Source: Paenibacillus sp. FSL K6-1330
GTDB taxonomy: Bacteria > Bacillota > Bacilli > Paenibacillales > Paenibacillaceae
Direction: 5' to 3'
NCBI RefSeq assembly: GCF_037976825.1
Contig: NZ_CP150269.1
Location: 2,865,501 to 2,929,500 of the forward strand
Length of the DNA: 64,000 nt
Positions 2,422-5,415 of the stretch are shown piece by piece. The position numbers and the translations under genes were made by a program. Within the stretch, counting starts at the first letter, position 1. Each line of letters starts with the position of its first letter. The notes under the pieces were generated by a model that saw only the letters and a list, made by a program, of their open reading frames with translations, was not told the origin of the DNA and did not search any database.

Positions 2422-2940
2422 TTACCCCAAATCTTCGAATGCGGAGTGGAAACGGAATTCGCCATGCAGGTGGTTGAGTGCGCCTAGCTGAAGCTCGGCA
2501 ACCATGAACACTTCATCGGAAACCGTGAATTGCGTTAAGTCGATCCCATAGGTTCTGGCCTGAACAAAGCCGTAACGGGGATAATACGCCGGATGGCCGA
2601 ATAGAAAAACAAGGGGATAGCCATGCGAGAGGCACCGCCGTTTGCCTTCTTCAATCAAAATTCCGCCGATCCCTTGACGTTGATAATCCGGAAGCACAGC
2701 CAGTGGCCCTAGCGCAGCCACGTAATGGCTATGAATGCCGTCAATAAGGCTGGCCTGGCTGAACATAATATGTCCCTTGATGATCCCATCTTCTTCTGTA
2801 ACGATTGACAATTCCCGTTGAAAGGTTTTGTCTTCCCGCAGCCGTTGTACTAGAAGCGCTTCTTCCTGTCCGGGAAAAGCCTGAGTGAGAAGGTCCTGGA
2901 CCTTCTCATGATCGTTTATGGTTTCTGTACGTATGATCAT
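2422..2940 (-). CDS. GNAT-family N-acetyltransferase (YhbS-like)
   Basis: A cytoplasmic GNAT fold protein. Motif A is seen as LGPLAVLPDYQRQGIGGILIEEG (acetyl-CoA pyrophosphate loop QRQGIG), followed by FLFGHPAYYPRYGF, typical of the COG3153 group. I chose the ATG at 2940 because GAGGAG lies just upstream; an upstream GTG at 2958 would place the SD inside the gene. The acceptor substrate is unknown. It stands as a single leftward gene between the methyltransferase operon and the MutS2-like gene. Confidence 0.8.
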   Translation of the reverse strand: MIIRTETINDHEKVQDLLTQAFPGQEEALLVQRLREDKTFQRELSIVTEEDGIIKGHIMFSQASLIDGIHSHYVAALGPLAVLPDYQRQGIGGILIEEGKRRCLSHGYPLVFLFGHPAYYPRYGFVQARTYGIDLTQFTVSDEVFMVAELQLGALNHLHGEFRFHSAFEDLG

Positions 2941-3011: not shown

Positions 3012-4979
3012 TTACTCCGGCTTCGTTTCAATCTGCAGTCCTTCAACGTGCTTGCGGTTCATCAGTTTACGCTTCTTCAGGTTCTCTTTGCTCTCAAAAA
3101 CGATATCAAGATTATAATCCTCCGGGTAAAGATCCTTGGCGGCAATATAAGGTTTCAGTCGTTTGTAGTTAATCTTCAGTCGATCCTTCTGAATCATAAC
3201 ACCGATATTTCCTCTACCGTCCATGGTTTCATACACGGTTCCGCTACGTTTCAAATAAGGCACATAGACACGATCGCCAAGTTGATAGAGGGAAGAGGGA
3301 GGATCTTCATCTTCATCTACATGATCTTGAACAATCACTAGCTCATCCTGTTCGTCTGTCGGTAAGGTAACGTGTTCTGCCAGACTCGCTTCTTCTGCCC
3401 ATGCTTTGGGCTCTGAGCGAACATCATCTCTAAGGACTTTGTCGCCTCTTGCAGCTCCCGCTTCCGTGATTTCACGCGATCTGGTTATAATCGACTCCGG
3501 AATGCCCAGCTTCGCGGCAATGACAAAGGCATAACTGTGACCGGCTTCACCGATCCGCAGACGATAGAGGGGCTCAAGTGTGTCAGCGTCAAATTCCATG
3601 CGGGCATTCTCAAAGCCGGCTGTGCGCTCGGCAAAATTTTTGATTTCTGTAAAATGGGTGGTGACTACAACCGTTGCTTGACGTTGACTCAATTCCTCCA
3701 AAATGGCGATCGACAATCCAACGCCTTCACCTGGGTCCGTTCCGGACGCCATCTCATCGAGCAGTACGAGCGTGGACCGGCTAGCCGTCTGTAAAATGTC
3801 GCGGATGTTGCGTATATGTGCAGAGAACGTGCTGAGGGCATGCTCCAAGCTCTGTCCGTCTCCGATATCGACGGAAACCTCCTCAAAGATGGCGCAATGG
3901 CTGCCATCCGCTACAGGAACCAGCAGACCGGATTGAACCATGACCGTAATGAGTCCAACCGTCTTGAGCGCTGAAGTTTTGCCGCCGGTGTTAGGTCCTG
4001 TAATGATCAGGGTTTTATACCGCTTCCCGATGGTAAAGTCCAGCGGTACCATGGTGGAGCCGATTAAAGGATGCACCGCGGATTTTAAATGGATGAACCC
4101 TTCCTGGTTCAGGCTCACATTGCGCCCGCCGATGGAAATGGCATACTTTCCTCTGGCTATGATGTAATCGTAGACTCCAACAATGTCGGCATTGGTTCTC
4201 AGTTCGAATTGATATTGCTCGGCAAGTGCGGTTAAATCACTCAACACCTTTGTTTCTTCCCGAACTTCATCGGCATGGAGGAGAGTTAATTCCATCTGAA
4301 GTGCCTGCAAGTCGGAAGGCTCGATGAATACGGTCTGTCCGCTTGCCGATTCATCCAGAATCGAGCCATTCACGGATTTACGGTGTTCCTTCTTGATGGG
4401 CAGCACGTAACGTCCTCCGCGTTTGCTGATGACATGCTCTTGCATGATCCCTTTGTAACGGCTTATCAGGCTGTCGAGCTTGCGCTTGATCCGTTCCTCG
4501 GTCATGATGATTTTTTTGCGGACTTTTGCGAGATCTTTGCTGGCGCTATCCACGACACGTCCGCCGTGAATGCTGCGTTCGATTTCGGACAGAAGCGGAC
4601 GCAGTTCATGCATGGAAGAGGCGTAGGAACTGATCAATGGAGCAATGTCGTTCTTGGCATTCATATATTGAATGAGCTGGCGGCAGCTTCTCAGATATTG
4701 GACCATATTCCCGAAATCACGCTCAGACAGGACATAGCCGGTACCGAGCAAATCCAGGACCGTTTTTATTCCCTCCAGTGAAGGAATAGGTACGCTGGCT
4801 CCGGTATGGAGCAAAGTTTTGGCTTCTACCGTTTCATTCAATTTATTGTGGATGGCTTTCATCTGGGTGAGGGGGGCCATCTTCTGAATATGCTCGACTC
4901 CCAGATACGATACGGCAAAGCGTTCAAGCTCGGTGCGTATTCTCTCATACTCCAATTTGTTTAATGCGAATGGTTTCAT
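3012..4979 (-). CDS. MutS2-like ATPase lacking the C-terminal Smr domain
   Basis: About 655 residues. The N-terminal core and coiled-coil lever region (roughly residues 1-310) are followed by the MutS ATPase with Walker A TGPNTGGKTS (about 330-340), Walker B LVLLDEMASGTDPGEG (about 405-420) and the VTTHFTEIK switch. This is the MutS2 layout, but the protein ends in KKRKLMNRKHVEGLQIETKPE, where a usual MutS2 (nearly 800 residues) continues into the KOW/Smr nuclease part. MutS2 of Bacillus subtilis has been reported as a factor that acts on collided ribosomes, so a paralogue without Smr could have a ribosomal role; that is inference. The start at 4979 has AAAGGAG with 10-base spacing; the ATG at 4988 is too close to it. 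The long leader is described separately. Confidence 0.85.
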   Translation of the reverse strand: MKPFALNKLEYERIRTELERFAVSYLGVEHIQKMAPLTQMKAIHNKLNETVEAKTLLHTGASVPIPSLEGIKTVLDLLGTGYVLSERDFGNMVQYLRSCRQLIQYMNAKNDIAPLISSYASSMHELRPLLSEIERSIHGGRVVDSASKDLAKVRKKIIMTEERIKRKLDSLISRYKGIMQEHVISKRGGRYVLPIKKEHRKSVNGSILDESASGQTVFIEPSDLQALQMELTLLHADEVREETKVLSDLTALAEQYQFELRTNADIVGVYDYIIARGKYAISIGGRNVSLNQEGFIHLKSAVHPLIGSTMVPLDFTIGKRYKTLIITGPNTGGKTSALKTVGLITVMVQSGLLVPVADGSHCAIFEEVSVDIGDGQSLEHALSTFSAHIRNIRDILQTASRSTLVLLDEMASGTDPGEGVGLSIAILEELSQRQATVVVTTHFTEIKNFAERTAGFENARMEFDADTLEPLYRLRIGEAGHSYAFVIAAKLGIPESIITRSREITEAGAARGDKVLRDDVRSEPKAWAEEASLAEHVTLPTDEQDELVIVQDHVDEDEDPPSSLYQLGDRVYVPYLKRSGTVYETMDGRGNIGVMIQKDRLKINYKRLKPYIAAKDLYPEDYNLDIVFESKENLKKRKLMNRKHVEGLQIETKPE

Positions 4980-5026
4980 GGGCTTCATTCTCCTTTTGAT
5001 TTATAAAATGGATGGCATACAATGCA

Positions 5027-5067
5027 AAAAAGGACGGAAAGCGAACTACTAAGGTTCGCTTTCCGCC
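5027..5067 (-). terminator. Second intrinsic terminator in the leader of the MutS2-like gene
   Basis: CGGAAAGCGAAC and GTTCGCTTTCCG form a 12-bp perfect stem, followed on the minus strand by CC and a TTTTTT run. It sits only about 40 bases before the start of the leftward MutS2-like gene, with no gene upstream on that strand that would need it, so it is probably conditional. Confidence 0.85.
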
Positions 5068-5143
5068 CATAGACCGTTATTCCGATGGCATGGCGTTATG
5101 GGACAGCTCCAAATAACCCTTTTGCATAAAAGAGGGGAGACCC

Positions 5144-5172
5144 AAAAAATCCGCGCTGAACTCAGCACGGAT
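5144..5172 (-). terminator. First intrinsic terminator in the leader of the MutS2-like gene
   Basis: Minus-strand ATCCGTGCTGA pairs with TCAGCGCGGAT (one G-U pair) and is followed by TTTTTT. It lies downstream of the mini-ORF at 5352-5329 and upstream of the second terminator. Confidence 0.85.
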
Positions 5173-5340
5173 GACCATATCATATCTGAATAAACCCTAA
5201 AGGGGCTTCAATTGATATCCGCAGTTCTTAACTAATTCAACGGATGAAATGAAAATCCATCAAAAAATAAACATATCCCAATACAGGGAATGCCCAAAAT
5301 TTTACATTTCGATCCATATGAAATTTGGTTAGTTAAGAAC
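5144..5340 (-). promoter_or_regulatory. Candidate transcription attenuator (anti-antiterminator, antiterminator, terminator)
   Basis: On the minus strand the last codons of the mini-ORF, GTTCTTAACTAA (5340-5329), are perfectly complementary to TTAGTTAAGAAC (5235-5224). The end of that second arm continues into AACTGCGGAT, which can pair with ATCCGTGCTGAGTT, the 5' half of the first terminator. The arms are therefore mutually exclusive: a ribosome held on the mini-ORF would free the second arm to break the terminator. The pairings are seen in the sequence; the mechanism is inferred by analogy with mini-ORF attenuators of ribosome-protection genes. Confidence 0.6.
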
Positions 5341-5352
5341 GACCACCGACAT
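5329..5352 (-). CDS. Seven-codon leader mini-ORF (MSVVVLN)
   Basis: ATG at 5352-5350 is preceded by AAAGGAG (5367-5361) at an ideal 8-base spacing and reads seven codons to TAA. It is far too short for a stable product. Its position between a promoter and two intrinsic terminators, and the overlap of its last codons with a 12-base inverted repeat, suggest a translated regulatory leader for the MutS2-like gene. Confidence 0.55.
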   Translation of the reverse strand: MSVVVLN

Positions 5353-5385
5353 CAAAATCTCTCCTTTAGATAAGAGTATAGAACA

Positions 5386-5415
5386 ACTATATCCATAAAT
5401 ATGGTCCCAAGTCAA
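5386..5415 (-). promoter_or_regulatory. Predicted sigma-A promoter for the MutS2-like leader transcript
   Basis: On the minus strand TTGACT (5415-5410), an 18-base spacer and TATAGT (5391-5386). Transcription would begin near 5379, just before the SD of the mini-ORF. A TATACT at 5380-5375 is an alternative -10. Confidence 0.5.

Follow-up and report, generated by a model that had tools for sequence, protein, structure and literature searches.

A conserved mini-ORF leader of Bacillota upstream of Smr-less MutS2-like and branched-polyamine-synthase-like genes, probably a ribosome-mediated attenuator

Ribosome-mediated attenuators have been established in front of ABC-F, hflXr, and msrD genes (PMC9226507, PMC6310831, PMC10314930). 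The motif TTNTTT is the NusG-dependent pause motif of the vmlR leader (PMC9226507) and has been noted in msrD as well (PMC10314930). Here, we analyzed a 64-kb stretch of Paenibacillus sp. FSL K6-1330 (the window, positions numbered from its first letter), in which an initial annotation had proposed an attenuator built on a mini open reading frame (mini-ORF) upstream of a mutS2-like gene, noting that such attenuators control ribosome-protection and rRNA methylase genes in Firmicutes; for ribosome-protection genes this is indeed established in vmlR and msrD (PMC9226507, PMC10314930). We found that this leader belongs to a class whose conservation extends through Bacilli and to the Clostridia inspected. 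The leader is very likely a ribosome-mediated transcription attenuator, in which a stall in translation would switch on the genes behind it.

The leftward promoter, the seven-codon ORF with its Shine-Dalgarno (SD) sequence, the 12-base inverted repeat, and the two terminators of the initial annotation are all present in minus-strand positions 5415 to 4979. As had been claimed, the first arm of the repeat consists of the last mini-ORF codons and the stop codon (5340-5329). The second arm continues into TGCGGAT, which is complementary to the 5' side of the first terminator (5172-5149), again as described. All leader coordinates refer to the minus strand of the window, whose own locus is L001. 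The evidence given below for each feature draws in part on two alignments, A1, with 82 of 105 non-redundant leaders, and A2, with 50 leaders chosen for diversity, 13 of which were found by a model built from A1. The features are as follows.

5386..5415, minus strand: promoter of sigma-70 type, TTGACT-18-TATAGT (-35 at 5415-5410, -10 at 5391-5386, 18-base spacer)
5361..5367, minus strand: SD sequence AAAGGAG of the mini-ORF (sequence; conservation in A1)
5329..5352, minus strand: mini-ORF encoding MSVVVLN and a stop, ATG TCG GTG GTC GTT CTT AAC TAA (sequence; peptides in relatives)
5329..5340, minus strand: arm 1 of stem P1, the putative anti-antiterminator, GTTCTTAACTAA, codons 5-7 plus stop (pair counts in A1 and A2)
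5317..5325, minus strand: conserved AAUUUCAUA (consensus AAUUnCAUA), directly 3' of the stop codon (A1 consensus)
5262..5292, minus strand: hairpin with UUUAUUUUUU directly 3' of it, a candidate pause site of the NusG type, TTNTTT (motif enrichment)
5224..5235, minus strand: arm 2 of stem P1, TTAGTTAAGAAC, exact complement of the last mini-ORF codons plus stop
5217..5227, minus strand: putative antiterminator strand GAACTGCGGAT, overlapping arm 2 (swap test; partial-transcript folding)
5144..5172, minus strand: intrinsic terminator T1, with its stem at 5172-5149 followed by Ts (terminator scan; its 5' side is the antiterminator partner)
5026..5068, minus strand: intrinsic terminator T2, stem 5068-5032 then Ts (terminator scan; precedes the gene)
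3012..4979, minus strand: gene proposed to be regulated, Smr-less MutS2-like ATPase of 655 aa (TIGR01069, PF00488, fold)
2422..2940, minus strand: GNAT acetyltransferase, possible operon partner (Pfam Acetyltransf_9, with an earlier start codon)

The mini-ORF, arm 2, and a terminator were found at all 30 loci selected for the highest protein scores (the window locus and L004-L032). The initial annotation had named the lack of a conserved mini-ORF and complementary arms beside homologous genes as its refutation; both are conserved at these loci, across Bacilli, and in the Clostridia inspected. The mini-ORF pattern matched 108 of 150 genomes with up to two mismatches (no control matches). When three mismatches were allowed, it matched 257 of 392 genomes from the order to which the window genome belongs, in 26 of 49 genera. 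A looser form allowing one mismatch matched 56 of 398 genomes of its class. All three samples include the window genome, and in the order and class samples no reversed-pattern control was among the matches listed. Conservation and the empty pattern controls together ruled out chance pairing of the arms.

A scan of named genomes gave at least 119 stretches with the pattern. The 21 that were inspected all came from genera other than Paenibacillus, among them Brevibacillus, Bacillus, Halobacillus, Thalassobacillus, and Cytobacillus and, on the Clostridia side, Clostridium, Petroclostridium, Geosporobacter, and Tissierella. Eleven further homologs were inspected, nine of which had been missed by the two-mismatch pattern; nine of the 11 have a recognizable mini-ORF, with peptides such as MAEVVLN, MARVVLI, MSGVVLN, and MSAVTLN. 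The mini-ORF and arm 2 also occur upstream of mutS2-like genes in two plasmid homologs, L284 (pHD01 of Paenibacillus sp. IHB B 3084) and L285 (Cytobacillus spongiae). The sole match in a viral contig (L283) lies inside a phage ORF on the other strand and was taken as chance. No Rfam family matched in the window, and the leader stretch reached at best 22.7 bits against that family's cut-off of 66. Within the window genome, the two strong matches of the leader model were the window leader and L223, and the model gave no match near the canonical mutS2 gene.

In total, 207 leaders with arm 2 were collected, 197 of them with a T1 call. Removal of six, in which arm 2 was misplaced (four), the reverse strand had been read (one), or the contig end cut the leader (one), left 191. 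Arm 2 read in reverse complement gives ATGATATCCGC..GTTCTTAACTAA (MISAVLN and a stop), a mirror of the mini-ORF that is due to the stem (e.g. L090, L132, and L183). Six of ten leaders without a recognized target read MISAVLN in this way and were excluded from later sets.

Outside the arms, both G residues of the SD core GG are at least 90% conserved in A1. Of 195 leaders, 150 have a promoter-like site in the 80 nt upstream, against a mean of 7.9 after shuffling. In 177 of 191, no more than 100 nt separate T1 from arm 2, and 169 of these 177 have a second terminator-like hairpin by a loose criterion. By number alone, neither kind of element exceeds chance in the window, with 2 promoters found in the 1.5 kb tested versus 2.7 expected, and 2 terminators found versus 1.3 expected. 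T2 itself is often conserved, of the type GGCAGAGAATGA..GTTCATTCTCTGCC, and 93 of the 177 leaders show a GAAC/GTTC-like tip. In some leaders T2 appeared by eye to pair with the SD of the mini-ORF, an idea that was set aside for lack of generality. The mutS2-like gene has a well-placed SD at its start (4979).

We then considered stem P1. The window leader folds at -133.4 kcal/mol versus -99.4 in shuffles (z -6.0). The predicted stem extends outward past the 12 bases and takes in the start codon, by pairing of 5355-5348 with 5219-5212, as well as most of the SD, by pairing of 5369-5361 with 5205-5197. The mean pair probability of P1 was 0.97 in partial-transcript folding. The arms are nearly invariant in A1, where 94.8% of cells are paired in the 12-bp stem versus 24-49% in slid versions; the six double-change cells and the covariation score lie above all 500 shuffles. 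In A2, 96.0% of cells are paired, with 10 double-change cells in four pairs and a covariation of 0.100 versus 0.039 in shuffles, and none of 500 shuffles reached any of the five measures. Slid versions of A2 reach a covariation of at most 0.027 and at most 49% of cells paired. Compensatory changes were found in L046 (AAC to ATC with GTT to GAT), L268 (CTT to CTG with AAG to CAG), L277 (CTC with GAG), and genus g269 (AAC to AAA with GTT to TTT). This covariation supports a stem that holds the mini-ORF. In L268 and L277 the codon still encodes Leu despite the change, a hint that the peptide is under selection as well.

These patterns bear on two other explanations. If the leader RNA bound a protein or a metabolite and the mini-ORF were untranslated, the conservation of the arms, of AAUUnCAUA, and of the T2 tip beyond what pairing needs would be accounted for. 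However, the SD, the spacing, and the start codon are conserved, and the Leu codon and arm 2 change together in L268 and L277 with V-L kept (but L073 is unmatched), and we regard this explanation as quite improbable. An amino-acid attenuator of the trp type, whose mini-ORF would sense the charging of Val, Leu, or Asn tRNA, is suggested by the three Val codons and one Leu codon of MSVVVLN. We judge it highly improbable: codon 4 varies widely, V, A, or G predominates at codon 3, Asn is replaced by Ile or Lys in some relatives, and the identified targets neither make nor charge Val, Leu, or Asn.

The genes behind the leader were surveyed in 195 leaders (197 minus two). The first recognized gene was mutS2-like in 145, BpsA-like in 42, and GNAT in five, with none in two and one cut off, a census biased by the deliberate collection of unusual leaders and counting L037, with its mutS2-like remnant, as mutS2-like. 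At six loci a mutS2-like gene is followed by a BpsA-like gene. The window genome itself has its second leader, L223 (G000:C1:1132262-1132419, E 6.4e-14), before a BpsA-like gene, so the leader that the initial annotation tied to a MutS2 relative is shared with another family. PF01861 (BpsA_C) was matched behind L223 (E 2.4e-43), L150 (E 5.2e-46), and L035 (E 1.4e-44); judged by sequence, targets of this type are branched-polyamine-synthase-like. The BpsA-like genes of L037, L038, L060, L064, and L067 are followed by HAD genes (FkbH-like by eye; Pfam was run on L037), in most cases with a GNAT gene too, and an acyl-carrier protein-like gene is present in L037, L038, and L067.

Of the two leaders without a target, one (L040, genome G045) is kept with no recognized gene behind it, its target being gone, and the other (L167) precedes a gene that looks methyltransferase-like by eye. 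In L037 (genome G126) the leader is followed by the mutS2-like remnant and then a BpsA-like gene. L037 and L040 thus appear to be cases of target gene loss behind a retained leader. One of the five GNAT genes lies about 2 kb from its leader (L057). A leader-linked GNAT protein matched Acetyltransf_3, and its similarity to ribosomal-protein acetyltransferases (RimL and RimJ) was weak and below the cut-off. The GNAT protein of the window (2422..2940) is identical at 36 of 105 positions to the second GNAT behind the L227 leader.

At a threshold of E 0.01, a covariance model of the leader had matches in 19 of the 398 genomes searched from the phylum, of which about four could be expected by chance. 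Downstream genes were obtained for 12 of its 20 places and were mutS2-like (five), an ABC exporter (four), ABC-F (two), and a serine hydrolase (one). The exporter leader was present in all nine genomes of genus g269 (37 genomes of that class), and the one exporter examined there is MsbA-like. The two ABC-F proteins scored 463 and 502 bits against the NF000355 cut-off of 380. GNAT, ABC exporter, and ABC-F genes behind the leader class, the last with weak leader scores, fit the translation-stress role that the initial annotation had suggested.

The BpsA-like genes raise the question of a polyamine sensor, in which scarce polyamines would slow ribosomes on the mini-ORF or at its end and thereby switch on BpsA-like and S-adenosylmethionine (AdoMet) decarboxylase genes, with the MutS2-like protein as an accessory. 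In animals, polyamine-responsive termination takes place at an upstream ORF (uORF) encoding a hexapeptide. The share of BpsA-like targets (42 of 195) would agree with such a sensor, as would the AdoMet decarboxylase gene that comes next after the BpsA-like gene in Tissierella (L150). We consider it unlikely, since mutS2-like genes lie behind 145 of the 195 leaders and the exporter and ABC-F targets do not fit.

We next turn to the switch itself. The duplex of the antiterminator with the 5' half of T1 has a native mean of -10.94 kcal/mol over 144 unique combinations, compared with -6.89 for shuffled T1 and -9.20 (standard deviation 0.15) for T1 swapped between leaders; none of 200 permutations reached the native value, a statistic that ignores kinship among the leaders. 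An atypical T1 occurs in 28 leaders, and in 27 of them the native antiterminator binds it better than a typical antiterminator does. In several Bacillaceae, GCTATG in T1 is matched by CATAGC in the antiterminator. Antiterminator and terminator are therefore matched to each other.

Of the 177 leaders with T1 close to arm 2, 170 were folded. When the transcript was cut at the T1 loop and the mini-ORF was covered as by a ribosome, at least four antiterminator pairs formed in 159 of 170 leaders, compared with 12 of 170 uncovered and 13 of 170 with the loop covered instead; this cut was chosen after folding of the complete leader had shown no switch. In the window leader, antiterminator pairs rose from 0 to 9.3. 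The attenuator logic of the initial annotation thus holds for these 159 half-made leaders and is not seen at equilibrium on the complete leader. The motif TTNTTT occurs in the loop between the arms in 133 of 190 leaders, versus 76.6 (standard deviation 4.8) in dinucleotide shuffles, the leaders being related. For 94 of these 133 leaders, the distance from the start of the motif to arm 2 is 29-37 nt (A1 consensus GGTTTATTT). By analogy with vmlR, the motif and its hairpin probably pause the polymerase here.

We propose that the leader works as follows. By default, arm 1 in the mini-ORF and arm 2 would form P1 as an anti-antiterminator, so that T1 forms and transcription stops. The hairpin and UUUAUUU between the arms would pause the polymerase, allowing a ribosome to load before arm 2 is made. 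A ribosome held on the mini-ORF would cover arm 1 and leave arm 2 and the next bases free, and this strand would bind the 5' side of T1 while the 3' side has yet to be transcribed, letting the polymerase read on. The inducing signal is likely the slowing or stalling of translation, for example by a ribosome-targeting antibiotic. We infer the translation of the mini-ORF, the stalling, the pausing, and the inducers, as well as the function of the protein and the role of T2.

Several results weigh against this attenuator, besides the disregard of kinship in the swap test. At equilibrium, when the whole leader up to and including T1 was folded, the terminator was formed at 0.94 with the mini-ORF free and 0.92 with it covered, and it fell by more than 0.2 on covering in only 5 of 170 leaders. 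Because T1 persists at equilibrium, the switch must be kinetic and act during transcription. In a codon scan of 60 leaders, covering from any of codons 1-7 opened the antiterminator, most often with early codons (57 of 60 for codon 1, 33 of 60 for codon 7), and no single stall codon emerged; the scan therefore gives no clue to the drug class. Among the 28 leaders with an atypical T1, only 21 had a native pair that beat the pairing of their antiterminator with typical T1s. In A1, the two double-change pairs and seven further pair types were matched by 66 and 71 of 500 shuffles, and slid versions of A2 gave up to six double-change pairs (eight cells, in a version with 32% of cells paired). Most P1 pairs show little covariation because the 9-bp core is almost invariant. 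L073 has an altered Leu codon with no matching change in arm 2, the mini-ORFs or leaders of L044 and L050, the other two of the 11 further homologs, have diverged, and T1 of L223 has no U-run, although its T2 has one. The leaders of the two ABC-F genes scored weakly, at E 2e-4 and 0.005 per genome in a search of 398 genomes.

The window protein scored 571.6 bits against TIGR01069 (MutS2; cut-off 400), which bears out the annotation of a MutS2-like gene, and the gene is not the canonical one. PF00488 (MutS domain V) is the only Pfam family above cut-off in the protein, and no Smr domain was found in it by Pfam. The canonical MutS2 of the window genome is encoded at a separate locus, has 792 aa, and contains Smr and MSSS domains. 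In all 120 proteins found with the C-terminal part, PF00488 occurs alone; the closest homologs are from Paenibacillus. An AlphaFold2 model of the window protein (predicted local distance difference test, pLDDT, 80.8) has MutS2 structures as its closest folds, including MutS2 on collided disomes. Four strands of the model at 570-604 (block pLDDT 85-88) align with the MSSS (SH3/KOW) region of the canonical protein. Pfam gave no MSSS match in the window protein and weak ones in L236 (E 0.008) and L277 (E 0.052). The gene product is a Smr-less MutS2 paralog and not canonical MutS2. In-frame stops were flagged in the aligned range of the mutS2-like homologs of G076, G046, G110, G102, and G131 and may reflect upstream extension or decay.

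In Bacillus subtilis MutS2, the ATPase matters most, and Smr mutants are only modestly sensitive to erythromycin (PMC10897456). With the ATPase dominant there, an inducible Smr-less copy makes sense as a ribosome-splitting factor. By analogy with HflXr, the corresponding factor for HflX (PMC6310831), the paralog may be an inducible counterpart to MutS2 that splits or clears stalled ribosomes. More broadly, and with slightly less than even confidence, we suggest that one leader class, M[ST]-x-x-VLN-stop with a pause hairpin, could be a Bacillota translation-stress switch with a scattered regulon. In this regulon, an inducible Smr-less MutS2 for the clearance of stalled ribosomes would be joined by ABC-F proteins, an exporter, a branched-polyamine synthase, and an acetyltransferase resembling RimL. 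If so, hundreds of Bacillota genomes carry a translation-stress regulon that is absent from the libraries and papers searched, in which a common attenuator links polyamine chemistry with collision rescue, both of them protecting the ribosome. A MutS2 paralog acting as a ribosome protector, comparable to HflXr, and branched polyamines raised on ribosome attack would then become testable. Since the leader is common to unlinked genes, it could also be used to search for further ribosome-protection factors.

The initial annotation knew of no described attenuator for the MutS2 family, and the open-licence literature (bioRxiv not included), in its accessible text, likewise yielded none before a MutS2-like or BpsA-like gene. 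The uORFs described in accounts of ABC-F, hflXr, and msrD attenuators encode MIN, MR[I/M], MK[L/Q], MAGN, an RLR peptide, or MYLIFM, and all differ from the mini-ORF here. The leader shares with the uORF-controlled attenuators of vmlR, hflXr, and msrD a short leader ORF with an SD that lies within the anti-antiterminator stem. It also shares an antiterminator that is exclusive with P1 and pairs with a T1 arm, as seen in the transcript cut at the T1 loop and not at equilibrium on the complete leader. The B. subtilis vmlR leader (PMC9226507) resembles it in having a uORF in the anti-antiterminator stem, an antiterminator, an intrinsic terminator, and a TTNTTT motif (a NusG pause there, a candidate pause here), and it controls a ribosome-protection ATPase, a likeness of description and not of sequence; its uORF (MIN) has three codons and the mini-ORF here has seven. 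Listeria hflXr/rli80 (PMC6310831) and the motif uORFC-6-1 (PMC8632094) likewise combine anti-antiterminator, antiterminator, and terminator, and the gene that they precede is a copy of one for a ribosome-splitting factor. The protein family there is different, and the leader peptide is 14 aa long with an RLR motif, which is absent from the mini-ORF peptides listed here. The msrD leader peptide msrDL (MYLIFM; PMC10314930) is similarly very short and is followed by an intrinsic terminator and an ABC-F target, but macrolides stall the ribosome at its stop codon. By description, the ribosome-mediated attenuator before the ABC exporter pair in bmrB-bmrCD of B. subtilis (PMC4191407) corresponds to the g269 leaders. 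B. subtilis MutS2 (PMC10897456; structures 7qv3 and 8qpp) has the same MutS core ATPase and is among the closest sequences and folds. Unlike it, the window paralog is without Smr, has a different C-terminal tail, and lies behind an attenuator. The mechanism therefore appears to be of a known kind, and the leader family and its targets appear to be new.

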